Assembly: GCA_026417375.1 (NCBI GenBank)
Contig: JAOADJ010000033.1
Span: forward strand, 62,001-126,000
Length of the DNA: 64,000 nt
Source: Melioribacteraceae bacterium
GTDB taxonomy: Bacteria; Bacteroidota; Ignavibacteria; Ignavibacteriales; Melioribacteraceae
Reading direction: 5' to 3'
Position numbers and translations under genes: made by a program. How positions within the stretch are numbered: the first letter of the stretch is position 1; the number at the start of each line of letters is the position of its first letter. The notes beneath the pieces were generated by a model. The model was not told the origin of the DNA and did no database searches. It worked only from the letters and a program-made list of their open reading frames with translations. Positions 46,174-63,660 of this stretch are shown here, piece after piece.

Positions 46174-47319
46174 ATGAATTATAAACTTGAAACTTTTTTT
46201 GATACTCCGGAAAGAAAGTCAGATGAAGATGTTCTTAATGAGATATTAAGTTTAAAACAAAACTCATTAATGAATCAGATAATAGAAGGATTTCCAGAAC
46301 TAGCAATTATTTTAAATGAGCACAGACAAATAATTGCATTTAATTCCAAAGCTTTAAAAACTTTTAATGTTGATATTTATTTAGATATTGTAGGAAAAAG
46401 ATTGGGTGAAGCACTGAATTGTATTTATAGTAATGAAACAGAAGCCGGTTGTGGAACTTCAAAATTTTGCAGAGAGTGTGGTGCTGCAAAAGCAATTAAG
46501 AAATGTAAAGATGAGAATATTGAAACAACCGAAGAATGTAGAATAACCGCTCTTAAAAATGGGAAACAAATTAATTATGATTTTAGTGTTTATGCACATC
46601 CGATTTTTATAAATGATAAACAATATACTTTTTTCACTGTAAAAGATATATCAAGTGAAAAAAGAAGAGAAGCATTAGAAAGAATTTTCTTTCATGATAT
46701 TTTAAATACTGCAGGAGCTATTCGTGGTTTAACTGAAATCCTAACTGAAACAAACGACATAATCGAAAGAACCGAAATTGAAAAAGCAATTAATGATTCA
46801 ATAAATCAACTGATAGAAGAAATTTTAGCTCAACGTCAATTAAGAAATGCTGAAGATGGAAATTTAACTCCAGACTTCGAAACAATTTCAGCTAATTTTA
46901 TTATAGAAAGAATATTTGAAATGTATAAAAATCATGAACTAACACATAACAATTTGATTATAAAAAAACTTGAAAATGATATAAATATAATTACTGATAA
47001 AATGCTTATTATAAGATCATTATCAAACTTAACAAAAAACGCATTAGAAGCATCTTCATCTGAACAACTAGTTGAATTAGGTATAAATTTAACTTCAGAT
47101 CAAATTGAATTTTATGTAAAAAATGAAAATTTAATTCCTGAAAATGTGCAGTTGCAATTATTTCAAAGATCATTTTCAACAAAAAATAGTAAAGGGAGAG
47201 GTATAGGTTTATATAGTGTTAAATTAATTGTTGAACAATATTTAAAAGGCACAGTAAGTTTTGTATCAAATGAAATTGAAAGAACAGTATTCAAAATAAA
47301 ATTACCAGTTAACAATTAA
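46174..47319 (+). CDS. Orphan histidine kinase with cysteine-rich PAS domain
   Basis: A 381-residue cytoplasmic kinase with no membrane segments. A PAS domain at about 35-165 carries six cysteines (Cys83, 93, 99, 102, 111, 122) in the pattern C-x9-C-x5-C-x2-C-x8-C-x10-C, suggesting a metal, iron-sulfur or thiol-based sensor. The phosphoacceptor is His174 in FFHDILNTAG, and the HATPase domain (about 265-378) has NLTKNALEAS and GRGIGLYSVKLIVE. No response regulator is adjacent. It converges on the carotenoid operon with a four-base overlap. Confidence 0.87.
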   Translation: MNYKLETFFDTPERKSDEDVLNEILSLKQNSLMNQIIEGFPELAIILNEHRQIIAFNSKALKTFNVDIYLDIVGKRLGEALNCIYSNETEAGCGTSKFCRECGAAKAIKKCKDENIETTEECRITALKNGKQINYDFSVYAHPIFINDKQYTFFTVKDISSEKRREALERIFFHDILNTAGAIRGLTEILTETNDIIERTEIEKAINDSINQLIEEILAQRQLRNAEDGNLTPDFETISANFIIERIFEMYKNHELTHNNLIIKKLENDINIITDKMLIIRSLSNLTKNALEASSSEQLVELGINLTSDQIEFYVKNENLIPENVQLQLFQRSFSTKNSKGRGIGLYSVKLIVEQYLKGTVSFVSNEIERTVFKIKLPVNN

Positions 47320-47993
47320 TTTTTTAATTGATATAACTTCCACCAGGGAACAAATGGTTTATCATGATGTTCGTAATGATAACCGAAAAAGTAACAGGTT
47401 ATCATTGCCCACAAATGATTTTTAATTTGGCTTCTTGCTTTATGTGGTTCCATTTCATCTGTGTGAGGTTTTTTATGTGGCAAATAAGTTCCAAAGTAAA
47501 ATAATTGTAATGAACTTAAAAAAGCAGGTATAACCCAATAAAACCATAATTTTATTTCTTCAACCCAAATCTTTAAAACGTTAAAAGCTAAACCCATTAT
47601 AATCAACTGAACAATTGATGAATAACGAATTAAAAAGGTTAACCACCAGATAAAAAAGTTTTGAGTTTTTATATTAAAATCCGGATCGTTTTCACTTCCG
47701 GGATATTTATGATGTTTGAAATGATTTACTTTTAATTTCTTGTAAGACATTCCAGCATATAAATATGATGTAATAGTTCCAATCAGATTATTAATAAATA
47801 AATTTTTACTAACAGTTTTATGCATTGCATCATGTGCTGTTATGAATAACCCGGTATAAAAATATGTTTGAATAAGAATATGAATATATGTTATAACAGA
47901 TTTTAGGTTTACTTCTACATATACTAAGCTGTAGTATAGATGAGAGAACCACAAAAGAAAAATTATAGATGAAATTAATATTCCCATTTGCAA
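47316..47993 (-). CDS. crtW: Beta-carotene ketolase, CrtW type
   Basis: A 225-residue integral-membrane di-iron oxygenase. The histidine motifs are TAHDAMHKTV, NHFKHHKYPG and YHYEHHDKP, with FGTYLPHKKP, in the order of CrtW ketolases. CrtW introduces a 4-keto group on a beta-ionone ring. It is the last gene of the carotenoid operon, one base after cruF. The family is broad (fatty-acid desaturase-like), but the motif spacing and the neighbouring lycopene cyclase support ketolase. No CrtZ-like 3-hydroxylase is present in the cluster. Confidence 0.87.
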   Translation of the reverse strand: MQMGILISSIIFLLWFSHLYYSLVYVEVNLKSVITYIHILIQTYFYTGLFITAHDAMHKTVSKNLFINNLIGTITSYLYAGMSYKKLKVNHFKHHKYPGSENDPDFNIKTQNFFIWWLTFLIRYSSIVQLIIMGLAFNVLKIWVEEIKLWFYWVIPAFLSSLQLFYFGTYLPHKKPHTDEMEPHKARSQIKNHLWAMITCYFFGYHYEHHDKPFVPWWKLYQLKN

Positions 47994-47994
47994 C

Positions 47995-48636
47995 TCATAA
48001 AAATATTTTAAGAATTAAAAAGAAAATTAACTGAACGATGAAATATTTCATTGATATATTGTTTTTTAATTCGATTTTCATAAAACTAAAAAACATTACT
48101 GCAACCAAAGAAATTATATACCAAGCGATATAATTTTGAATTGGTATTGTATTATTATGCCATGACCAGTAATCAAGTTTTATTGCTACCGGTTCAAGAA
48201 TAAAATCAAATAATACTGTGAAAACAGGAGCTACCAATAAAATCAATAATTTTTTATTAAATAATTTGTTCGATAACTGAATGGCACCAAGAATTATCAA
48301 AACCCAATTAAAACCAATAATTATTGGAACACCAAAAATTTTAATACCCAAAGTATTGCCATATTGATAGTTCCCAAAAATTATTTTTGTATGAACTCCA
48401 ATTATCTCAATAAGCATTGTTATAAAAAATACAATAAGCAACCATAAAAATATTTTTTTGTTATCATCTGTCAGTAAATTCATAATAACTATTGAAGTAG
48501 TAATGAATAATGTAAATGGAGTAAGCATAATCATATATTTTTGTAAATATTGAATTGGATGTGCTAATGCTCCAACGAAAAATAAAATGTATATGATTGT
48601 ATCTGAGTATTTAGTTATAATTTTCTTCCCTTCCAT
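47995..48636 (-). CDS. cruF: CruF-type carotenoid 1',2'-hydratase
   Basis: A 213-residue membrane protein with about six helices of the carotenoid-synthesis family that includes CruF and bisanhydrobacterioruberin hydratase. Recognisable segments are IEIIGVHTKIIFGNYQYG, VPIIIGFNWVL and DFILEPVAIKLDYWSW, which are the conserved core. The enzyme adds water across the 1',2' double bond of an acyclic psi end group, giving the hydroxyl that is later glycosylated. The gene overlaps the glycosyltransferase gene by 22 bases. Confidence 0.9.
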   Translation of the reverse strand: MEGKKIITKYSDTIIYILFFVGALAHPIQYLQKYMIMLTPFTLFITTSIVIMNLLTDDNKKIFLWLLIVFFITMLIEIIGVHTKIIFGNYQYGNTLGIKIFGVPIIIGFNWVLIILGAIQLSNKLFNKKLLILLVAPVFTVLFDFILEPVAIKLDYWSWHNNTIPIQNYIAWYIISLVAVMFFSFMKIELKNNISMKYFIVQLIFFLILKIFL

Positions 48637-49709
48637 TCCAATTTGCCCAATGAATTTGTCATCATTGAATTAATACCAACTAAAAAAACTGCAACCATTT
48701 GAAAAGGATGTAACAAAACATTAAGAAATATATTCTGATTGCTTAAGTGTGATATAATTATTCTTGATATGATAATCATAAATACAATTGTTATAAATTT
48801 TATTTCGAACAAGACAAGAATTGTGGGTAACATAAAAACAGATTGAATAAAAATTAATAACAAAGAAAACATAACAGTTGAGATGTTAAATCCAGCATAA
48901 AAATTTTTGGAAAATCCATTAAATGCTTCATCTAATTTGGAATACATTTTACATTTAACAAAATTATTTCCAAGTAAAGTAATTATCTTGAATTTTCCCT
49001 CTTTCACCTTACGCGCAAGTTCCATGTCTTCAACAATTTTATTTTTAACAGAAACATGTCCACCAATTTTTAAATATGTTTCTTTATCAATCATAATAAA
49101 TTGTCCATTTGCTGCTACAAATGATTTGTTTGTTGAAGTATATACTTTTAGAAGTGGTAGAAATGTTAACAAAATCCAATTCATCATTGGAGTAATTAAA
49201 TAAGTTGAAATATTGGGAATTATTTGTGTTGGAAATATTGATAACATATTAACTTTTTTTTCTTTGAATATTTTCAATACAGATTCAATTGAATTTTCAT
49301 TTATTGAAACATCCGCATCTAAAAAAAGGAATATATCTCCATTTGCTTTTTGTGATAACTGATGGCAGGCAAAATTTTTTCCTAACCAACCTTTTTGCAA
49401 TTTTTCACCATTAATTAAATGTATTCTATTATCTAAAACAGAAAATGATTTAACTATTTTTTGAGTATTATCAGTTGAATTATCATCAAGCACAATAATT
49501 TCAAGATTTTTATATGATTGATTTATTAAATTATTTAACAAAGTAGTTATATTTTTCTCTTCATCTCTTGCAGGAATTAATACACTTATCTTTTCACTTT
49601 GATTTTCAAGACTAAATAATTTCACTCTTGGTGCAAATAACAAGTTATATATAACAATTAAGAAAAAAATAGAGTTACTAACTAACAATATTGTAAATAC
49701 AACGTCCAT
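48615..49709 (-). CDS. Family 2 glycosyltransferase of the carotenoid cluster (CruC/CrtQ-like)
   Basis: A 364-residue membrane glycosyltransferase. A first helix (about 5-25) is followed by the GT2 catalytic domain (SVLIPARDEEKNI, VLDDNSTDNT, FLDADV with the DxD motif, GQFIMIDKE and VEDMELARKV), then C-terminal helices at about 270-345. The arrangement matches CruC/CrtQ-type enzymes that transfer a sugar to hydroxylated or carboxylated carotenoids. It lies between the acyltransferase and cruF genes with overlapping ends, so a sugar on the CruF-created hydroxyl is the most direct reading. Sugar identity cannot be told. Confidence 0.87.
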   Translation of the reverse strand: MDVVFTILLVSNSIFFLIVIYNLLFAPRVKLFSLENQSEKISVLIPARDEEKNITTLLNNLINQSYKNLEIIVLDDNSTDNTQKIVKSFSVLDNRIHLINGEKLQKGWLGKNFACHQLSQKANGDIFLFLDADVSINENSIESVLKIFKEKKVNMLSIFPTQIIPNISTYLITPMMNWILLTFLPLLKVYTSTNKSFVAANGQFIMIDKETYLKIGGHVSVKNKIVEDMELARKVKEGKFKIITLLGNNFVKCKMYSKLDEAFNGFSKNFYAGFNISTVMFSLLLIFIQSVFMLPTILVLFEIKFITIVFMIIISRIIISHLSNQNIFLNVLLHPFQMVAVFLVGINSMMTNSLGKLEWKGRKL

Positions 49710-50368
49710 TAATTTTCTTCAAAAATATTTTTTATAAACAATTTTTTATTTGATAATTCATTTAATAATGAAACGTTTTTAATGAACTCATTAATATACA
49801 ATTCATAGTTTTCATTAATTATCTTTCCGTCAAGATAGTTTCCAAACCGGGTAATAATTGCAGGTTTTTTTTCTTCATAAAATTGGATCTTAAATGCAAC
49901 CGGTAAAACCATAAAATTGTCTTTAGTTTTTTTTGTAAATAATTGTAATCCTTTTTTGATATTTATTTGTTCCGGATCAAAAGGTTCAATATTGCCTTGA
50001 GGATAAATTACAACAACATTTTCATTTGTAATTAATTGTGATGTATAATTTGATGTTTCAATAATACTTTTTGAATTGTTTGGATTTATTGAATATGCAC
50101 CAACTTTTTGAAAGAACCAATATTTACGAAGTTGTTCTTCCAACATCATAATGTGAATTTTTCTTTTAATAAATTTTCTTTCAACATAACCAATAAAAAA
50201 ACCATCCCACCAACTAAAATGATTTGGTGTAATAATTAAACCTAAGTTTTTATCTATTTGAGGTAATTCATTTGTAAAATAAAAGTGAGAAAAATTTTTT
50301 TTAAGAAGTCTTTCCAAGTAAGGATAAAAAATTTTCTGAGCTAAAAAATTATGTTGAGCTTTTAGCAT
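49709..50368 (-). CDS. PlsC-family acyltransferase of the carotenoid cluster (CruD-like)
   Basis: A 219-residue acyltransferase of the lysophosphatidate family. Block I is TPNHFSWWDGFFIG (the NHxSxxD variant of HxxxxD) and block III is YPQGNIEPFD. No clear membrane helix beyond a short amphipathic start. In carotenoid clusters of the FCB group such proteins (CruD) add a fatty acyl chain to the carotenoid-bound sugar. The gene shares one base with the glycosyltransferase gene and abuts crtD, which supports that role over general phospholipid synthesis. Confidence 0.85.
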   Translation of the reverse strand: MLKAQHNFLAQKIFYPYLERLLKKNFSHFYFTNELPQIDKNLGLIITPNHFSWWDGFFIGYVERKFIKRKIHIMMLEEQLRKYWFFQKVGAYSINPNNSKSIIETSNYTSQLITNENVVVIYPQGNIEPFDPEQINIKKGLQLFTKKTKDNFMVLPVAFKIQFYEEKKPAIITRFGNYLDGKIINENYELYINEFIKNVSLLNELSNKKLFIKNIFEEN

Positions 50369-51859
50369 TTATTTCTCGTACTTAAAGATTAATTCAGCTG
50401 TAATTTTTCCGGACAAAATTGTCAAAGGTATTCCACCACCCGGATGAACACTCCCTCCACAAAAGTAAAGCCCATCAACTTCTTTGGATTTATTCTGTTG
50501 TCTTAAGAAAGCAGCTTTTCTATTGTTAGAAGAAATTCCATATAAACTTCCTAAATAACTTGAAGTTTCATATTCAATATCTTCAGGTGTTAATATTTTT
50601 TCAAAAAATATTTTTTCTTCTAAATCAATTTTTAATACTTCATTTATTTTACTAATTATTTTATGCTTGATTCTATCAATTTCCTTTTTGAAGTCGAAAT
50701 TAGAATTATTTGGTGCATTAATCATAACGAACCAATTTTCGAAACCATTGGGTGCATCATCTTTTTTATACTTAGATGATATATAAATATAAATTGTTGG
50801 ATCATTTGGAATAATTTTTTCATCGAATATTTCTTGAAATTCTTTTTCGTAATTATCAGAAAATAAAATATTATGAATTTCAAGATTATCGTATGTACCT
50901 TTAACTCCCCAGTAAAAAACAAGTGCAGATGAAGATGGTTCTAACTTCTTTATTTTCTCGGCTGATTTTAGATTTTTACTTTTAATCAATTTTTGATATG
51001 TATAATTAATATCAGCGTTTGATATTACAATATCGTAATTAATAATGTTCGGATTATTTTTTTCTTTAATGCCAACTATTTTGTTTTTTTCAATTAATAT
51101 TTCTTCAACTTCTGTATTAAAATGAAATGTTACATTTTTCTTTTTTGCTAATTCAAACATGCTTTCAACTATTGAATAAATTCCTTTTTCAGGAATGTAT
51201 CCACCTATGTTATATTCAACATGAGGAATAATGTTTAATGTTGCAGGTGCTTTGTATGGATTTGATCCATTATAAGTTGCATATCTATCAAATAACTGAA
51301 TTATTTTTTTATTAGTAAAATAACTTGAAATTGATTGATGCATTGTTCTGAATGGATCAATTTTCCAAATATTAAAAAGAGTTTTAAGTGATTTAAGATT
51401 AAGAAATGTTTTAATTTCACTAAAACTTTTAAATAAAAATATTTCGGCTGTTAAATCGTAGATTGTTTGAGCATACTTCAAAAACTTTTTTACATTCGAT
51501 GAATCTGCTGAAGATATTTTTCTTAATTCACTTTCAAATTTATTCAAATCAGAATAAGCATTAATTGTAACACCATCTCTCCAAAAATATTTACAATAAA
51601 CATCTAATTTTTTTATTCTTAAATAATCCTCAAAGTTTTCATTTACATTTTTAAATACATCTTCAATTACAAATGGCATTGTTAAAAGAGAAGGACCTTT
51701 ATCAAATCTAAAACCATTTTCATTTATGAAGTTAGCTTTTCCACCCGCAAAATTATTTTTTTCATATACATGAATTTCTTTAAAATATTTTGACAAGTAT
51801 AATGCTGAACTTAAGCCGCCAAAACCCGAACCAATAATAGCTATTTTTTTCTTGGACAT
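50369..51859 (-). CDS. crtD: 1-hydroxycarotenoid 3,4-desaturase, CrtD type
   Basis: A 496-residue flavoprotein of the phytoene desaturase family. The FAD motif IAIIGSGFGGLSSALYLS is N-terminal, and the C-terminal flavin motif is LYFCGGSVHPGGGIPLTI. The segments FDKGPSLLTMP, FDRYATYNGSNPYKAPATL and HVEYNIGGYIPEKGIYS are hallmarks of CrtD rather than CrtI, so the predicted reaction is 3',4'-desaturation of a 1'-hydroxy end group. It cooperates with CruF. The gene overlaps the cyclase gene by 19 bases. Confidence 0.9.
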   Translation of the reverse strand: MSKKKIAIIGSGFGGLSSALYLSKYFKEIHVYEKNNFAGGKANFINENGFRFDKGPSLLTMPFVIEDVFKNVNENFEDYLRIKKLDVYCKYFWRDGVTINAYSDLNKFESELRKISSADSSNVKKFLKYAQTIYDLTAEIFLFKSFSEIKTFLNLKSLKTLFNIWKIDPFRTMHQSISSYFTNKKIIQLFDRYATYNGSNPYKAPATLNIIPHVEYNIGGYIPEKGIYSIVESMFELAKKKNVTFHFNTEVEEILIEKNKIVGIKEKNNPNIINYDIVISNADINYTYQKLIKSKNLKSAEKIKKLEPSSSALVFYWGVKGTYDNLEIHNILFSDNYEKEFQEIFDEKIIPNDPTIYIYISSKYKKDDAPNGFENWFVMINAPNNSNFDFKKEIDRIKHKIISKINEVLKIDLEEKIFFEKILTPEDIEYETSSYLGSLYGISSNNRKAAFLRQQNKSKEVDGLYFCGGSVHPGGGIPLTILSGKITAELIFKYEK

Positions 51860-52521
51860 TTTTCTTTAAATAATTTATAGAAAAATAAGTTAAATGATAA
51901 AAGTGAAAATGAATAAAAAAAATCTTCCAATGGAATTGTTATTATTCTGATGTTCCAGATAGCATTTGATGAATAGCTTACAATTGGCAATGAAGTTAAA
52001 ATATAATTTACTACAAAAAATGGAAGGTAAGTAAACAAAATCCATATCCAATAAATATTTGATGACAACAAATAATTTTTTGTGAAATAGTTTATCAAAA
52101 AGAAAATTGAAACAAATATCATAACAGTGAAAGTGTAATACTGTTTATAATAAACTATAGAAATTGTAACTGCAATTAAACTTATTATTATAGAAAGATT
52201 ACGTGGAAAATTAATTTTACTCTCGGGCAAATAAGATTTTGCAGTTTCATACAAAAAAATTGAAGCAAATGGTACTGTAACAAAAAACAAGATTTCTTCT
52301 AATGGCAAATGAAAAAATTTTATACCTAAAATATATTTAGTGTTAAAACTCCAATCATTTCTAATTGTTGCAATAATATCCCAAATAATAAAAACAAAGC
52401 CAACTAGTGAAATAGAAAGAAATAAATGTGAATAATTTTTATAAAATTTTATCTTTTTTTCAAAAGACATAATTAAAGGAATAATAATAGTAAGAATATT
52501 TATTAGTAGATAAATACTCAT
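51841..52521 (-). CDS. Lycopene cyclase, fused CrtYc-CrtYd type
   Basis: A 226-residue membrane protein with about seven helices made of two cyclase domains. The first contains VGFVFIIWDIIATIRNDWSF and HLPLEEILFFV, the second NAIWNIRIITIPLEDFFYSF. Heterodimeric or fused CrtYcd enzymes cyclise a psi end to a beta-ionone ring. Together with CruF acting on the other end, the product would be monocyclic. The gene overlaps the neighbouring TPR-like gene by four bases (ATGA-type) and crtD by 19 bases. Confidence 0.9.
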   Translation of the reverse strand: MSIYLLINILTIIIPLIMSFEKKIKFYKNYSHLFLSISLVGFVFIIWDIIATIRNDWSFNTKYILGIKFFHLPLEEILFFVTVPFASIFLYETAKSYLPESKINFPRNLSIIISLIAVTISIVYYKQYYTFTVMIFVSIFFLINYFTKNYLLSSNIYWIWILFTYLPFFVVNYILTSLPIVSYSSNAIWNIRIITIPLEDFFYSFSLLSFNLFFYKLFKEKCPRKK

Positions 52522-53096
52522 CTTAAGAGTGAGAGTTCTTTTTGTAATATTTTAATTGAAGCATTATCAATTCTTTCACTTGAAATCATAAATTCAAAAA
52601 TTCCTATTTGAATTTCTTTATTCACAAGTGAAAAATCTTTTTTCATTAAAAGTTTAAAGATCTCGTTAGCATCTTCTTCTCTTTCTTTGCCATAACCAAG
52701 AAAAGATGGGACGTAATGCAAAATTGAAAATCTTAAAAATCTTATTTCAAGATTATCAGGAGCTAAATCAATTGCCTGTGATAAATATTTCATTGCTTCT
52801 TTTAAATGATTTAGTTTTTTCATCGGCCAGAATGCATGTTTTGATTTTACCGCTTCAATTCCACCAAGATATGCAATTTCATACAACTTAAATTTTGGAT
52901 TATTTGAAATGTACTTATAAATGTATTTTTCTAAATCATTTATATAAAAATCATCTTCAACAGCTTTATAATAAACTGCGCGTAAATCATCAATAATCTT
53001 TATTTCAGATTCACTGAATTTATCAGTTGATGATGCATTAATATTAAATTTAAATGTAAAAATTAATATTAGTATTAATTTGTAAAATTTATTCAT
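52518..53096 (-). CDS. Exported helical-repeat protein of the carotenoid cluster
   Basis: A 192-residue protein with a signal peptide (1-21). The body is helical, with one TPR-like unit (KEAMKYLSQAIDLAPDNLEIRFL) at about 102-124 and the motif AYLGGIEAVKSKHAFWPMKK before it. I do not know an enzymatic role. It is locked into the operon by four-base overlaps with crtB and with the cyclase gene, and similar small exported proteins occur in carotenoid clusters of Bacteroidetes as far as I recall. A role in carotenoid transfer or complex assembly is speculation. Confidence 0.75.
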   Translation of the reverse strand: MNKFYKLILILIFTFKFNINASSTDKFSESEIKIIDDLRAVYYKAVEDDFYINDLEKYIYKYISNNPKFKLYEIAYLGGIEAVKSKHAFWPMKKLNHLKEAMKYLSQAIDLAPDNLEIRFLRFSILHYVPSFLGYGKEREEDANEIFKLLMKKDFSLVNKEIQIGIFEFMISSERIDNASIKILQKELSLLR

Positions 53097-53935
53097 ACAC
53101 TTTTCAAAATTTTCACTTCGAAAATTGATTTTAATAATAAAACAATTTTATAAATGTTTGAAACACGAACTCTTTTTCTTAATAATTTTTTTACATCTAA
53201 TTTTTTAATTTTTCTAAATAAAACATAATAGTATAAATATGCTGAATAAACACCTAATTTAACTCCAATAGGTAATTTGTAAATACCTTTCAAAGCTTCA
53301 CTGAATTCTTTTTCAACTTCATTTTCTAATCGTTTTTTATTTTCATTATCAATATTCATTGTCGAGTGAACATCCGGCAGATAAATTCTTCCTCTTTCAT
53401 CAATATCACTTTTAATATCTCTTAAAAAATTTACTTTTTGAAATGCAGAACCCAACATTTTAGCTGGATAAAGAAGCTGATTATATTTTTCTTCATCTCC
53501 ATTTACAAAAACTTTTAAACACATTAATCCTACAACTTCAGCAGAACCATAAATATATTGGTCATAAACATTTCTTTGATAAGAGGACTTATCTAAATCC
53601 ATTTCCATGCTTCTTAAAAAAGCATCAATCAATGATAAATCAATTTTATATTTATTAACAACAATTTGAAATGAATTTAATATTGGGTTTGTCGAAATTT
53701 TTTCTTCAATTGCTTTAAAAGTTTCTTCACGAAATTTTTGCATCAACGATTTTTTATCATATTCCTGAAATGAATCAACTATTTCATCAGCAAGACGAAC
53801 AAATCCATAAACGGCATAAATTGGTTTCTGAAACTCTTTAGTAAAGGCTTTTATTCCTAAACTAAAGGAAGTGCTATATGCATTTGTTAATTTTTTGCTT
53901 ATATCAAAAGAAGTTTCATGATATAGTTGAATCAT
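53093..53935 (-). CDS. crtB: Phytoene synthase CrtB
   Basis: A 280-residue squalene/phytoene synthase. The first aspartate-rich motif is DEIVDSFQEYD (about residue 48) and the second is NFLRDIKSDIDERGRIYLP (about 168-186). It condenses two geranylgeranyl diphosphates to phytoene, the first step of the pathway. Length is a little short of 300 but complete. The start codon lies 20 bases inside the end of crtI. Confidence 0.95.
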   Translation of the reverse strand: MIQLYHETSFDISKKLTNAYSTSFSLGIKAFTKEFQKPIYAVYGFVRLADEIVDSFQEYDKKSLMQKFREETFKAIEEKISTNPILNSFQIVVNKYKIDLSLIDAFLRSMEMDLDKSSYQRNVYDQYIYGSAEVVGLMCLKVFVNGDEEKYNQLLYPAKMLGSAFQKVNFLRDIKSDIDERGRIYLPDVHSTMNIDNENKKRLENEVEKEFSEALKGIYKLPIGVKLGVYSAYLYYYVLFRKIKKLDVKKLLRKRVRVSNIYKIVLLLKSIFEVKILKSV

Positions 53936-55394
53936 TAAAAATTCTCTCCGTTACTAATTTTGAACTAATTATTACCATTGGCAATCCTGTGCCTGGTGTT
54001 GTAGATGCACCTACATAATAAAGATTTTTTAATTGTTCATCTTTATTCTTCGGACGAAAAGCTCCAACCTGATTAATATCATGTGCTAAACCTAATCCAG
54101 AACCTTTATACAAGTTTAATGTTTTTGACCAATCTTCTGGCGATAATATTTTTTTAACAACCATATTTTTTTGCAAATCATAATCAATTCTTTCAGATAA
54201 ATCATTTATAATATTATCAGCAAGTTCATCTTTATCTTTCCAATCCTTTTTATATCTTAAATCTGGTACTGGACAAAGAATAAAAATATTTTCATGATTA
54301 TCAGGAGCAGTAGTTGGATCAGATTTCGACAATACATTTACATAATAATATGGTTTTTGAGGCGCTATTGAAGAAGTAAAAATAGTATCAGCATAGCCTC
54401 TAAAATTGTTTCCAAGAAAGTAGTTGTGATGCTCTAATTTATTTACTTTTCCTTTAACTCCCAAATAAATAGTAAAAGGTGCTAAAGTCCAATGCATTTT
54501 ATCCAATTTTTCTTCTGAATATTTTTTTCTATTTAAATACTTTCCTCTGAACCAGGCTGCATCAGCATTTGAAACAAAAATATCTCCTTCCCAAATTTTT
54601 CCATTCTGATCAACAACATTTTTAACATTATTATTTTCATAATTTACATCAGTAACTTCAGTATTGTAGTAAATTTTTATGTTTCTTTCTTTCATCATTT
54701 TCAACAATTCTTCAATCAAACGATACATTCCCCCTTTGACCCGCCAATAACCATTATGCTTCATTTCTGTGTAATTTAACAGAGAATAAATTGCTGGTGT
54801 TTGAAATGGAGTAGCACCAAGAAAAAATGCAACTAATGAAAAAACAATTCTTAATTCTTCAGATTCAAATGTTTTTTCAACTTCACTCCACACAGTTTTT
54901 TGTAAATATGGAATATGTTTCCAGGGAACTTTTGCAAGTTGTAAAATATAACTCAACTTGTTATCAAAATTTGATTTTACAACTGTTTTTTCTGTATCAT
55001 GAAAAAATTCTCCGGCTCTTTTTAAATACTTTTCTGCTTTTTCTTTAAGATTTGTTTCAACATCAGAAAATTCTTCTTCTAATTTTTTAAGGTCTTTATA
55101 AATTTTTCTTGATTTGCTTTTACCGGCAAAATTAACTGTATAAAGTGGTTCTAATTCTTCGAACACAACTGGATTTTCGACACCAATGAAATTGAAAAAC
55201 TCATCGAATTCATATGTCATACTCATAAAAGATGGACCCATATCAAATCGAAAACCATCCATTTCAATTATATTCATTCTTCCACCAGCAGTTGAATGCT
55301 TTTCGAGAATTGTAACATCATAACCAATTTTGTTTAATCTTAATGCTGTAGCAATACCACCAAGACCAGCACCAATTATTATAGCTTTTTTCAT
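53916..55394 (-). CDS. crtI: Phytoene desaturase CrtI
   Basis: A 492-residue flavoprotein, first gene of the operon. The FAD motif IIIGAGLGGIATALRLN opens the protein; DMGPSFMSMTYEFDEFF, RVKGGMYRLIEELLKMM and the C-terminal YYVGASTTPGTGLPMVI are typical of CrtI enzymes that convert phytoene to lycopene. It differs from the second desaturase at 50369-51859, which has CrtD signatures, so the two are not duplicates in function. The 113-base divergent gap to the S46 peptidase gene should contain both promoters. Confidence 0.93.
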   Translation of the reverse strand: MKKAIIIGAGLGGIATALRLNKIGYDVTILEKHSTAGGRMNIIEMDGFRFDMGPSFMSMTYEFDEFFNFIGVENPVVFEELEPLYTVNFAGKSKSRKIYKDLKKLEEEFSDVETNLKEKAEKYLKRAGEFFHDTEKTVVKSNFDNKLSYILQLAKVPWKHIPYLQKTVWSEVEKTFESEELRIVFSLVAFFLGATPFQTPAIYSLLNYTEMKHNGYWRVKGGMYRLIEELLKMMKERNIKIYYNTEVTDVNYENNNVKNVVDQNGKIWEGDIFVSNADAAWFRGKYLNRKKYSEEKLDKMHWTLAPFTIYLGVKGKVNKLEHHNYFLGNNFRGYADTIFTSSIAPQKPYYYVNVLSKSDPTTAPDNHENIFILCPVPDLRYKKDWKDKDELADNIINDLSERIDYDLQKNMVVKKILSPEDWSKTLNLYKGSGLGLAHDINQVGAFRPKNKDEQLKNLYYVGASTTPGTGLPMVIISSKLVTERIFNDSTIS

Positions 55395-59170: not shown

Positions 59171-61033
59171 TTATACTTTTGGACCGATCATATTTTCCGG
59201 TGCTAAAAGTTTATCTAATTCATCCTTTGATAATAAATTTTTTTCTAAAACTAATTCATAAACTCCCCGATTAGTTTCCAAAGCTTCTTTTGCTAAACTT
59301 GTTGATACTTCGTAACCTAAAACCGGATTTAATGCTGTAATAATTCCAATACTATTTTTAACTAGATTTAAACAATGTTCTACATTTGCAGTTATTCCAT
59401 CAATACATTTATACTTTAATGTTGTCATTCCATTTTTCAACATTTCAATTGATTCAAAAATACTTTGAACAATTACTGGTTCCATTACATTTAATTCCAA
59501 CTGTCCAGCTTCTGCTGCAAGAGTAACGGTTAAATCATTTCCAATCACTTTAAAAGCAATTTGATTTACTACTTCTGGAATAACCGGATTAACTTTTCCC
59601 GGCATTATTGATGAACCCGGTTGCATTGGTGGTAAATTTATTTCATGAATTCCTGTTCTGGGACCAGAAGAGAGTAATCTTAAGTCATTACTAATTTTTG
59701 AAAGTTTTACGGCTAATCTTTTTACGGCTGATGAATAAATTACAAAAGCACCAGTATCTTGTGTAGCTTCAACTAAATTCTTTGCAAGCTTAATATCTAA
59801 ACCGGTAATTTCTCTTAAATGTTGAATACATTTTTCACTATAGCCGGGTTCGGCATTTATTCCAGTACCAATAGCTGTTGCACCCATATTTACTTCTAAA
59901 AATAGATTTGCATTTTCTTCAAGCCGTTGTATTTCTTCTTCAAGAGTAACAGCATATGCTTCAAACTCTTGACCTAAAGTCATAGGTACTGCATCTTGAA
60001 GTTGCGTTCTTCCCATTTTTATAACATTTGAAAATTCTTTTGCTTTATTATGAAATGATTCAATTAATGATTTTAATACTTCTATTAAATTTTTATTACT
60101 CTTTATCAAAGCAATTTTTATTGAAGTCGGATAAGCATCATTTGTTGATTGAGATAAATTAACATGATTATTAGGATGACAGTATTTATAATTTCCTTTT
60201 TCGTAACCAAGAATTTCCAATGCACGATTAGCAATTACTTCATTTGCGTTCATGTTTGTTGAAGTTCCTGCTCCACCTTGAATCATATCAATCACAAAAT
60301 GACCATGAAATTTTCCACTTATAATTTCCTGACACGCCTGAACTATTGCATCATGAATTGGTTTTGAAAGTAAACCTAATTCAAAATTTGCTTTTGCTGC
60401 TGCCATTTTTACTATTGCTAAAGCTTCAATTAAGTTTGGATAAAAAGAAAGTGTAACTCCACTTATATTAAAATTTTCCAATCCTCTTAATGTTTGAATT
60501 CCATAGTAAACTTCGCTTGGTACTTCTCTATCTCCCAATAAATCATGTTCTGTTCTTGTTCTTCCACTTTGATATTGTGCCCCTAAGTTTATTACCCGCG
60601 TATTTGAAAATTGCATTCTTCGAAAAATTACTTTTGCCATTCTACTTAAAATTTTAACAGGTAGATTTGGATATTCTTTAGATATTTCAAAGAATTTTTC
60701 TTTGGATAAAACTAATGCTGTTGTATTTAAAGTTGCTCTGGCATTTGTTGAGTGTGGAGTATCATCAATCAAAACACCTTCACCAAGAAAATCATATTTA
60801 GTAAAAATTGTTAATCTTTTTTCTTCTCCAAATGGAGTCTTTTTAAATAGCTCTATTTCACCATCAACAATTATGTATAAGTTTTTTCTTGGGGTGTTTT
60901 CTACAAACAGAAGAGAATTTTGCTCATAATTATTTATTTCAAAATTTTTTGACAGAACATTACATTCAGCGTCATTTATATCTTGAAATAATTCAATTCG
61001 TTTGATAAAACTTTTTATTTGTTCTTCATTCAT
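59171..61033 (-). CDS. aspA: Aspartate ammonia-lyase fused to N-terminal cyclic-nucleotide-binding domain
   Basis: A 620-residue fusion. Residues 10-115 form a CRP-like cNMP-binding domain (NLYIIVDGEIELFKK, and a phosphate-cassette-like FLGEGVLIDDTPHSTNARA with Gly-Glu and Arg99). A helical linker (about 115-155) leads into a complete class II fumarase/aspartase at 157-620, with RTEHDLLGDREVP, the HPNNHVNLSQSTNDAYP region and GSSIMPGKVNPVIPEV (473-488). Aspartase deaminates Asp to fumarate. Typical AspA has about 470 residues and lacks the added domain, so cyclic-nucleotide or other allosteric control is plausible. Distinguishing aspartase from fumarase C rests on overall similarity. Confidence 0.92.
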   Translation of the reverse strand: MNEEQIKSFIKRIELFQDINDAECNVLSKNFEINNYEQNSLLFVENTPRKNLYIIVDGEIELFKKTPFGEEKRLTIFTKYDFLGEGVLIDDTPHSTNARATLNTTALVLSKEKFFEISKEYPNLPVKILSRMAKVIFRRMQFSNTRVINLGAQYQSGRTRTEHDLLGDREVPSEVYYGIQTLRGLENFNISGVTLSFYPNLIEALAIVKMAAAKANFELGLLSKPIHDAIVQACQEIISGKFHGHFVIDMIQGGAGTSTNMNANEVIANRALEILGYEKGNYKYCHPNNHVNLSQSTNDAYPTSIKIALIKSNKNLIEVLKSLIESFHNKAKEFSNVIKMGRTQLQDAVPMTLGQEFEAYAVTLEEEIQRLEENANLFLEVNMGATAIGTGINAEPGYSEKCIQHLREITGLDIKLAKNLVEATQDTGAFVIYSSAVKRLAVKLSKISNDLRLLSSGPRTGIHEINLPPMQPGSSIMPGKVNPVIPEVVNQIAFKVIGNDLTVTLAAEAGQLELNVMEPVIVQSIFESIEMLKNGMTTLKYKCIDGITANVEHCLNLVKNSIGIITALNPVLGYEVSTSLAKEALETNRGVYELVLEKNLLSKDELDKLLAPENMIGPKV

Positions 61034-61153: not shown

Positions 61154-62320
61154 CTAAAATGCGGATACAAATCCTAAAGTAAACTGACTGAATTTATTTT
61201 TGAAGTCGTAAGATAGTTCAGATATTAATCTTAAATTTCTTCTTAACAAATATCCCAGATGTAATGAACCAGTTTGATAATCATATCCATCAAAATCTGA
61301 ATCAATCCAATTGTAAAGTGCAACTGCATACCATTTACTTTCATCCCCCTTTGGAGTATAAATTAATTCACCAAAACCACCTTTTGTATTTATTTCTTTT
61401 TTGTTACCAAAAGCATTATCATCAATTCTATTTCCATATTGAAAATTAAATTCCAACTGGTCTTTAAATTTAAAAGTTAAATCTGGACCAAACATTGTAA
61501 AACTATTAATGAAAGTAGTATTTGTTTCTAATTTTTCTTTTCCGAAATAACCAAAAGCACCTATTCTAAAATCATCAGAAATATCCTGAGAAATTCTTCC
61601 GAAAAAGTTTTTGTACTTATCATCATCAAAATTTCTAAAATTATCTGGTGCTCCTATTCCGGTTCCATTCAGTATTTCTATAACAATATCAGTTTTTGAA
61701 GGTAACCCATATGTCAACATTATTCCTCTGTCATAAGTAAGATTTGCTTTTGAAAATCCGGGTTGAATATTATAAAGTTGATAATCATCAAAGGTTAATC
61801 TTAATTCTCTTTTAAATAAAGGATCAGAAACCTGAAACTGACCAATATATAAATCCAAATCTTGTTCGAATAAATCATTAAACATTATGAAAGCATCTTC
61901 AATACCTGCAACTTCGCCACGTTCACTAAAAAAGAAATAAAAGTAATAAGAAATATTTTTTGCTAATGCACCACCTGAAAGAAATTTCAAAAGATATGGT
62001 GAAGTGAAATCAAGTTTTTCAGAATTTTTATTATTATAAGTAACAAAGCCTTCTAATCTTAATGCTATTGGTAAATCACGAATCAGAGATAATTGATCAT
62101 CACCTGTATCAACAAAATATCGGGGTGCATCTTTATCAGCCAGAACAAATCCATTTCCAGCAAATTCATCACCATAAGGTTTTAATTTTGGAAAAGGGGA
62201 ATGACAAGTTTGACAACTCATATTATACTTTCTTGCAAAAGCAGGAATAGCAAATACATTTTCTGTTAAAAGAATAAATGTAATTACAAATAAAAGTGTA
62301 ACAGATAAATATTTTTTCAT
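61154..62320 (-). CDS. Outer-membrane beta-barrel protein with N-terminal CXXCH heme site
   Basis: A 388-residue exported protein (392 if the upstream Met at 62332 is used). The signal peptide ends near FAIPA, followed immediately by FARKYNMSCQTCHSPFPKL, a single c-type heme motif. The remainder is a barrel with alternating strands and aromatic girdles (YYFYFFFSERG, DLYIGQFQVSDP, FNFQYGNRIDD) ending in Phe (FTLGFVSAF). Families with FARKY..SC..CH heads before a barrel occur in metal-respiring bacteria but lack known function. I favour ATG 62320 with GAGG seven bases upstream; the start at 62332 overlaps the cytochrome stop as ATGA. Confidence 0.85.
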   Translation of the reverse strand: MKKYLSVTLLFVITFILLTENVFAIPAFARKYNMSCQTCHSPFPKLKPYGDEFAGNGFVLADKDAPRYFVDTGDDQLSLIRDLPIALRLEGFVTYNNKNSEKLDFTSPYLLKFLSGGALAKNISYYFYFFFSERGEVAGIEDAFIMFNDLFEQDLDLYIGQFQVSDPLFKRELRLTFDDYQLYNIQPGFSKANLTYDRGIMLTYGLPSKTDIVIEILNGTGIGAPDNFRNFDDDKYKNFFGRISQDISDDFRIGAFGYFGKEKLETNTTFINSFTMFGPDLTFKFKDQLEFNFQYGNRIDDNAFGNKKEINTKGGFGELIYTPKGDESKWYAVALYNWIDSDFDGYDYQTGSLHLGYLLRRNLRLISELSYDFKNKFSQFTLGFVSAF

Positions 62321-62328
62321 AATAAACC

Positions 62329-63660
62329 TCATTGTAAAATTGTAACTTCTGTTGAATGTTTATTTACTTCTACAATTTTTGATTCGCTTGACGGTACTCC
62401 AAGAAAATCTGCAACTGGTTTAACTAATAATTGATAATTTAATGTTGCTGTTACTTTTAATTTGCCTGGAGAAATTTTTTCGGGAACTTTAAAAGTAAAT
62501 GTTTCAATTTTTGTTTCTCTTGGGCCGATTCTGTAATCAACACCAAATGATGCTGTATTCCATTGTTGAATTGTCATTCTTCCTTTAGGATCAAAATAAG
62601 GTTTTCTGAAAATTCTATCCCCAATCGGAATTCCATCTCTTTGAACACCTTTAAAATTCGGATCATTTAAAGCAATACCCATATCCTGATATGCAAGAAC
62701 ATCTTCACCAATTAAATATTCTTCCCCCTGAAAACCTTTTTTATCAACAGGTAAATGATATACATTTCCCTTTTCATCTATGGCTTCCACATGTAGCCAT
62801 ACAATTCTATCTTCAACTGAGCCAGTTGGAAATTTGTGTCCTGTTTTTTGATTAAACAATGCAACAGTAAATTTAACAACTTCACCGGGTTCAACTTCTT
62901 TAATGTCAGGATTAATTCTTATTTCAATTACACCTTTAACTTTTCCCTCATCATGAGCCCCATGAAATAAATGTAATCTTGCATCGTTGTAAGTGTTTCC
63001 CATTGAAGCTGTTTTAAATTCTGCTTTTGGCATATGACAATCTTGACATTGAACACCTTCTTTATAGTAAGGACCATCTTTCCATTCAAGATGTGTTGAT
63101 TTTACCCAAGTATCAAATGGTGATTTTTCATTATGACATATTCCACAAAAATCACCGGTTTTCATAATTGGATTAACTTCAATTTCATGTGCCGGAGATT
63201 GCACTCCTGATTTTCTTGATGAATATTTTGTTTTACCCGGTTTCATTATGTAATTGAAATTATATGGAGTATCACCCGAAAAACCTGCTATACTATGACA
63301 AACATCGCATGAAACAGATTCATTAGCTCTCGAGTTTTTACTTGGGAGTGGTGGAGGAACATCTCCAACTACATATGCAATTGGTGAATGACAACCATTA
63401 CAACCAGCTTTAACTTCAGCAACTTTCTCATCTTTTTCTGCATGTGGAACAGCTAATTTGAAATATTCTATTTCATCCCATTCATGTGTATATGCCTGAG
63501 ACATCATTGCTTGTTTCCATTGTTGATGAAACTCTGTATGACATGATGTGCCACAAAATTCCGGCGTTTTAAAATCGTCATATTTCAAAACACCTAATTT
63601 TGTTTGTGCATTTATCAAAGAAAATTGAATTACAATTAAAAATAAAATTTTGCCCTTCAT
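62329..63660 (-). CDS. Multiheme c-type cytochrome (five heme motifs, one CX3CH)
   Basis: A 443-residue exported cytochrome. The signal peptide (1-19) ends at NAQ. Heme motifs are C36-GTS-C40-H (three residues between cysteines), C87NGCH, C118DVCH, C172GICH and C205QDCH. The first is followed by FHQQWKQAMMSQAY, as in cytochrome c554-type domains. Residues about 250-443 have no heme sites and look like an immunoglobulin-like beta domain. It has a strong AGGAGG ribosome site and is the first gene of a two-gene operon with the heme-barrel protein, so electron transfer at or across the outer membrane is likely but unproven. Confidence 0.92.
   Translation of the reverse strand: MKGKILFLIVIQFSLINAQTKLGVLKYDDFKTPEFCGTSCHTEFHQQWKQAMMSQAYTHEWDEIEYFKLAVPHAEKDEKVAEVKAGCNGCHSPIAYVVGDVPPPLPSKNSRANESVSCDVCHSIAGFSGDTPYNFNYIMKPGKTKYSSRKSGVQSPAHEIEVNPIMKTGDFCGICHNEKSPFDTWVKSTHLEWKDGPYYKEGVQCQDCHMPKAEFKTASMGNTYNDARLHLFHGAHDEGKVKGVIEIRINPDIKEVEPGEVVKFTVALFNQKTGHKFPTGSVEDRIVWLHVEAIDEKGNVYHLPVDKKGFQGEEYLIGEDVLAYQDMGIALNDPNFKGVQRDGIPIGDRIFRKPYFDPKGRMTIQQWNTASFGVDYRIGPRETKIETFTFKVPEKISPGKLKVTATLNYQLLVKPVADFLGVPSSESKIVEVNKHSTEVTILQ

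Follow-up and report, generated by a model that had tools for sequence, protein, structure and literature searches.

What does a porin-like barrel that carries its own heme do beside a pentaheme cytochrome? The question is raised by two adjoining genes near one end of the window, i.e. the whole stretch of 64,000 nucleotides analysed here. The original prediction described a five-heme cytochrome coupled to a barrel bearing a heme motif of its own; both open reading frames are present as described:

61154 to 62332, minus strand: open reading frame of the barrel, a Cyc2-like fused monoheme cytochrome-porin of 392 aa (from the ORF, its 16 strands and its fold matches).
62329 to 63660, minus strand: open reading frame of a pentaheme c-type cytochrome of 443 aa, PHC/ExtKL-like (from the ORF, five CX2-3CH motifs, the fold and NCBIfam).
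62321 to 62331, minus strand: junction, with the cytochrome stop TGA, a Shine-Dalgarno-like GAGG overlapping this stop, then 8 nt to the conserved barrel start (from the sequence and gap statistics in relatives).

Each of the two genes occurs once in the genome (2.83 Mb). Read from its first ATG, the barrel gene overlaps the cytochrome stop by 4 bp (ATGA), but relatives conserve Met5 (at 62320) as the start, found in 96% of the aligned sequences and leaving a protein of 388 aa. Counted from Met5 the two genes are separated by 8 nt, and the commonest gap in relatives is 8–10 nt. Thus the proposed translational coupling holds in part: tight coupling of the two genes is likely, but it probably does not operate through overlapping start and stop codons, because the conserved start sits 8 nt past the cytochrome stop. 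Reinitiation across the short gap is the probable mode. Just downstream, and outside the conserved pair, the window encodes an N-terminal cNMP-binding domain fused to an aspartase/fumarase-type lyase (59171–61033, minus strand). A carotenoid-type gene run lies at 47316–55394 (minus strand), with two phytoene desaturase-like, a phytoene synthase-like, a glycosyltransferase-like and small membrane proteins.

The N-terminal part of the barrel protein contains four short elements:

62249 to 62320, minus strand: signal peptide, counted from Met5 (from the sequence; Met5 in 96% of aligned relatives).
62225 to 62251, minus strand: Cyc2 signature AIPAFARKY, i.e. AXPXFAR[Q/K][T/Y] (published consensus, PMC8406198; retained in relatives).
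62201 to 62215, minus strand: single heme motif CQTCH, residues 40–44 (from the sequence; Cys and His invariant in 72 relatives).
62183 to 62191, minus strand: PKL, the PXL motif of the Cyc2 heme domain (published consensus; P48 and L50 invariant).

CQTCH had been placed directly after the signal, and it indeed lies about 11 residues past the predicted cleavage site (between VFA and IPAFARKY). The residues C40, C43 and H44 are invariant across the 72 aligned relatives, so the motif is not there by chance. The premise that porin-cytochrome systems normally combine a heme-free barrel with separate cytochromes proved incomplete, since a heme-bearing barrel is the well-known Cyc2 type, a fused monoheme cytochrome-porin (PMC8406198, PMC5566968). 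Cyc2 is defined by AXPXFAR[Q/K][T/Y] before a single CXXCH, PXL after it, and a length of at least 365 residues (PMC8406198). The N-terminus of the barrel reads AIPAFARKY-NMS-CQTCH-SPF-PKL, which agrees exactly with this consensus and is kept in relatives, and the 392 residues hold one CXXCH. Cyc2 of Acidithiobacillus ferrooxidans and Mariprofundus ferrooxydans PV-1 and Cyt572 of Leptospirillum (clusters 1–3) likewise have a signal peptide, the signature, CXXCH and PXL in this order, one heme, and a 16-stranded OprP/OprO-like barrel of about 400 residues.

The fold agrees with this assignment. The AlphaFold2 model (mean pLDDT 84) is a 16-stranded barrel, as is the barrel of Cyc2, which was modelled on OprO and OprP, the templates for Cyc2PV-1 (PMC8406198). 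With VIA-align the best matches of the model are OprP (2o4v) and OprO (4rjw/4rjx), with Z of 24.7–24.9 over about 300 residues at 3.1–3.2 Å. They are barely ahead of general porins (Omp32, Z 24.1), so the model agrees with an OprP/OprO link but does not settle it. The heme region is modelled at low confidence (pLDDT 44–62) and without heme; its presumed position at the barrel mouth is taken by analogy from the Cyc2 literature. Outside CXXCH the aligned relatives share no invariant His or Met, M150 and M205 being the most conserved (94%). The barrel of the window matches no Pfam or NCBIfam family, and MtrB_PioB (PF11854) has no match in the genome; BBP2, an OmpL-like porin family, gives weak matches in 5/72 barrel relatives. 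Against PDB sequences neither the single sequence nor the profile found a match, and a search of a plasmid collection returned weak partial matches only. By signature and fold together, the barrel is Cyc2-like.

The cytochrome gene shows six features:

63538 to 63555, minus strand: heme 1 motif CGTSCH, of the CX3CH form (from the sequence; CX3CH or CX2CH in relatives).
63388 to 63402, minus strand: heme 2 motif CNGCH (C87, C90 and H91 invariant).
63295 to 63309, minus strand: heme 3 motif CDVCH (C118, C121 and H122 invariant).
63133 to 63147, minus strand: heme 4 motif CGICH (C172, C175 and H176 invariant).
63034 to 63048, minus strand: heme 5 motif CQDCH, followed by Met (C205, C208, H209 and M210 invariant).
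62332 to 62934, minus strand: C-terminal beta-sandwich (Ig-like) domain, residues 243–443 (AlphaFold2 model and VIA-align matches restricted to that part).

All five heme motifs are retained in relatives. At the heme 1 site, 54/62 of the relatives with five motifs have CX3CH and 8/62 have CX2CH; this alternation at the same position led us to reject a sequencing error or a chance motif, and judging from the alignment CX3CH is most likely a real heme site. Beyond the motif histidines exactly five further His are invariant among the aligned relatives (H59, H158, H230, H236 and H275), which suggests five bis-His electron-transfer hemes and hence a cytochrome that would act as an electron carrier. 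The protein has a Sec signal and no lipobox was seen, so that it is probably a soluble periplasmic protein.

Among solved structures, sequence comparison picked out one that is relevant, that of penta-heme c552 from Thermochromatium tepidum (E = 1.7e-6 with the single sequence, 1e-9 with the profile in hmmsearch). The model of the cytochrome superposes on c552 (5ZE8) over nearly its full length (VIA-align; Z 25.0, 342 residues, 3.7 Å), with about 21% identity over the aligned residues, and the next structure scores Z 10.1. The two proteins share five hemes and the Ig-like C-terminal part. c552 has been grouped with Geobacter ExtKL and the pentaheme cytochromes of cable bacteria, Ig-like domain included (PMC11976967), and the cytochrome of the window has the pentaheme fold and Ig-like C-terminal domain by which this PHC family is recognised. 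The PHC genes of cable bacteria differ in that no porin gene is adjacent to them (PMC11976967). As for ExtKL itself, all 59 members of our cytochrome alignment match the NCBIfam model NF040886 (best E 1.3e-17), but that of the window scores 48.6 bits, far under the curated cut-off of 250; it is therefore a relative of ExtKL and not ExtKL. Nor does its ORF contain an in-frame TGA before the stop, i.e. a selenocysteine codon.

The kinship with ExtKL brings in another reading, in which the pentaheme protein would be an enzyme reducing a specific substrate (selenite or tellurite, for instance, which have been proposed as substrates of ExtKL), while the heme barrel would mainly admit and sense the oxyanion. 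The resemblance to ExtHIJKL of Geobacter sulfurreducens is real: there too one periplasmic PHC-type pentaheme cytochrome is encoded beside a barrel of similar size, ExtI. Reduction of selenite and tellurite requires ExtI, a protein similar to phosphate-selective porins (PMC5877670), and the best fold matches of our barrel, OprP and OprO, are of this fold. The differences are several. No gene for a rhodanese-like lipoprotein or for ExtJ was seen beside the pair of the window, the available account of ExtI describes no heme motif like that of our barrel, and the cytochrome neither comes near the ExtKL cut-off nor contains a selenocysteine codon. Moreover the five additional invariant His suggest two His ligands per heme, which leaves no obvious open catalytic site. 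We regard a substrate-specific reductase as improbable.

To see how constant the association is, GTDB species genomes were scanned with the barrel alignment, giving at least 564 relatives, the best 80 of which were analysed. In 74 of these 80 loci the cytochrome gene is directly upstream of the barrel gene (73 on a strict count, the cytochrome match of L113 being in pieces). Five of the six remaining loci have less than 180 nt of upstream sequence, which makes 73–74 paired loci among 75 informative ones; the sixth (L166) has an in-frame piece of the cytochrome C-terminus fused ahead of the barrel. According to the record titles, which can be wrong for bins, the carriers are Ignavibacteria, Kapabacteria, Bacteroidales, Aminicenantes and other Acidobacteriota, Zixibacteria and Glassbacteria; one "Clostridiales" bin clusters with Aminicenantes. 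Among 146 related genomes the barrel is present in 49, the cytochrome in 46 and both in 45, for 15.4 expected by chance; because these genomes share ancestry, a formal p-value would have no meaning here. The exceptions are remnants or contig edges, save the genome with the L166 locus (G084), where the barrel survives beside a cytochrome remnant only. In a congener (L193, G005:C23:5000-20000) one deletion at the same site, beside miaB, joins residue 24 of the cytochrome to residue 83 of the barrel, and a stop codon interrupts what is left of the barrel reading frame.

The genes on either side differ between loci. A larger conserved operon is thereby ruled out, and the module is these two genes. 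Distant pentaheme relatives of the same class (25–30% identity) have no adjacent heme-bearing barrel in the four loci considered (L094–L097). Divergence in one protein is matched by divergence in the other (r = 0.64, the largest value in 2000 permutations being 0.19), as is expected of any linked pair; contact between them is not required to explain it. These data bear on the most sceptical reading, that of an ordinary porin with a relic heme motif, whose gene is merely co-transcribed with that of the cytochrome. The variable flanking genes would fit such a porin, and heme binding by the barrel is so far a prediction. This seems very unlikely because the heme motif and the Cyc2 signature are kept in the 72 relatives although the barrel has diverged about 1.7 times faster than the cytochrome, and because several phyla retain both genes as a pair, and the two decay jointly. 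A search of open-access full texts found no description of such fixed pairing across phyla, which is weak evidence of novelty; it appears that the pairing is undescribed while each type of protein was already known.

In a tree of the Cyc2-like proteins found here, the subfamily of the window forms one well-supported clade apart from the others compared (100/100); among those others, certain branches are very long and the branching order is uncertain. Within the same order of bacteria, divergent Cyc2-like barrels adjoin other electron carriers: a monoheme cytochrome together with caa3-oxidase genes (L186, a different subfamily), a protein with two heme motifs (L184), or a monoheme and a nonaheme cytochrome (L189 and L190). 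The general layout thus appears to be a heme-bearing porin combined with an interchangeable carrier in the periplasm, and the pentaheme partner marks the present subfamily. At two other loci (L179 and L187) Cyc2-like barrels with a heme motif (PAFSRKY...CDMCH) are encoded just downstream of genes resembling an RND metal-efflux pump. One of the weak plasmid matches is on pSBC1_3 of Caballeronia sp. SBC1 (L098, 6052–7260), where the annotated start of a "cytochrome C" (WP_206366205.1) is downstream of the CXXCH, so the database protein lacks the heme site; immediately upstream of it is a gene for a HiPIP.

We consider it probable that the pair is a two-protein outer-membrane redox relay, made of the Cyc2-like barrel and a soluble periplasmic pentaheme protein. 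A short N-terminal domain of the 16-stranded OprP/OprO-type pore, just after the signal peptide, would hold a single c-type heme at the mouth that faces the periplasm; the pentaheme protein would approach from the periplasm and exchange electrons with it, and a small soluble substrate would enter the pore to reach the same heme. The make-up of both proteins, their folds, the invariance of the heme sites and the strict pairing come from the data; the outer-membrane location of the barrel, its heme loading, the contact between the proteins and the small soluble substrate are inferred. The minimal conduit originally proposed is thus upheld as the best reading, with a tie between the two genes that is conserved across phyla, but "across the membrane" is too strong. 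For Cyc2, published work proposes that the single heme plugs a 16-stranded barrel at its periplasmic opening; one heme cannot span the membrane, and the substrate would have to come into the pore (PMC8406198). For the same reason a soluble substrate is favoured over wiring to minerals or electrodes. Here the pair parts from MtrAB, MtoAB, PioAB and Geobacter OmbB-OmaB-OmcB: these too combine a multiheme cytochrome gene with an adjacent outer-membrane barrel gene, but their barrels are larger (26 strands), heme-free, and enclose a decaheme wire.

The direction of electron flow is less sure. The main rival to an outward relay is an Fe(II) oxidase in the Cyc2 sense, in which dissolved Fe2+ would enter the barrel and reduce its heme, and electrons would run inward through the pentaheme cytochrome to alternative complex III and terminal oxidases. 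The barrel does have the Cyc2 signature and fold, and Cyc2PV-1 oxidises Fe(II) (PMC8406198). A sampling of the respiratory chain from raw ORFs of the same genome found gene products resembling alternative complex III beside a caa3-type oxidase (G000:C10) and a second COX1-family oxidase, cbb3-like (G000:C50). In addition FeGenie hits to Cyc2, mostly of cluster 3, were reported in communities with Ignavibacteriales and Zixibacteria that were credited with iron oxidation (PMC8478452). But the fixed partner here belongs to the family of a low-potential cytochrome, while described Cyc2 genes go with the usual high-potential carriers, rusticyanin, Cyc1 or HiPIP; the divergent Cyc2-like gene that does lie beside caa3-oxidase genes (L186) is of another subfamily, and the hosts are mostly uncultured relatives of heterotrophs. 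Iron oxidation by the pair seems to us possible but rather unlikely.

We lean slightly, and no more than that, towards outward flow, from the pentaheme cytochrome to the barrel heme and on to a soluble oxidant. The lean comes from the potentials of relatives, not of the proteins of the window: a paper cited in PMC11976967 describes c552 in its title as low-potential, the one neutrophile Cyc2 measured, Cyc2PV-1, stands at +208 mV, and ExtKL-type pentaheme cytochromes are tied to extracellular reduction (PMC6148476, PMC5877670). The same genome, again read from raw ORFs, also has a second multiheme cluster (L202, G000:C14:58000-71000). Its proteins of 16, 4, 14, 8 and 11 hemes surround an exported protein of 420 aa which lacks a heme motif and could be a barrel; the cluster is perhaps a conventional porin-cytochrome system, and a conventional route of extracellular electron transfer may thus exist beside the two-gene module.

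As a tentative generalisation, which we hold at somewhat less than even confidence, the pair may be a widespread module in mostly uncultured phyla, where a low-potential pentaheme cytochrome, together with a porin gated by heme, would reduce a soluble extracellular acceptor, distinct from both MtrAB-type wires and Cyc2 iron oxidases, while its barrel is at present taken to indicate Fe(II) oxidation. Cyc2 serves as a marker gene for microbial iron oxidation, and our finding bears on how this marker is read. The iron oxidation ascribed to Ignavibacteriales and Zixibacteria rests partly on FeGenie hits to Cyc2 (PMC8478452). At least two loci of the module (L122 and L145) come from assemblies labelled DeMMO, the site of this survey, and we infer that part of its "cluster 3" hits belong to the present subfamily. 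If the partner is a low-potential pentaheme cytochrome and the flow is outward, such iron-oxidation assignments would be wrong. Being constant, the pairing also offers a compact system of only two proteins with six hemes between them, in which the mechanism and direction of a single-heme porin may be probed.
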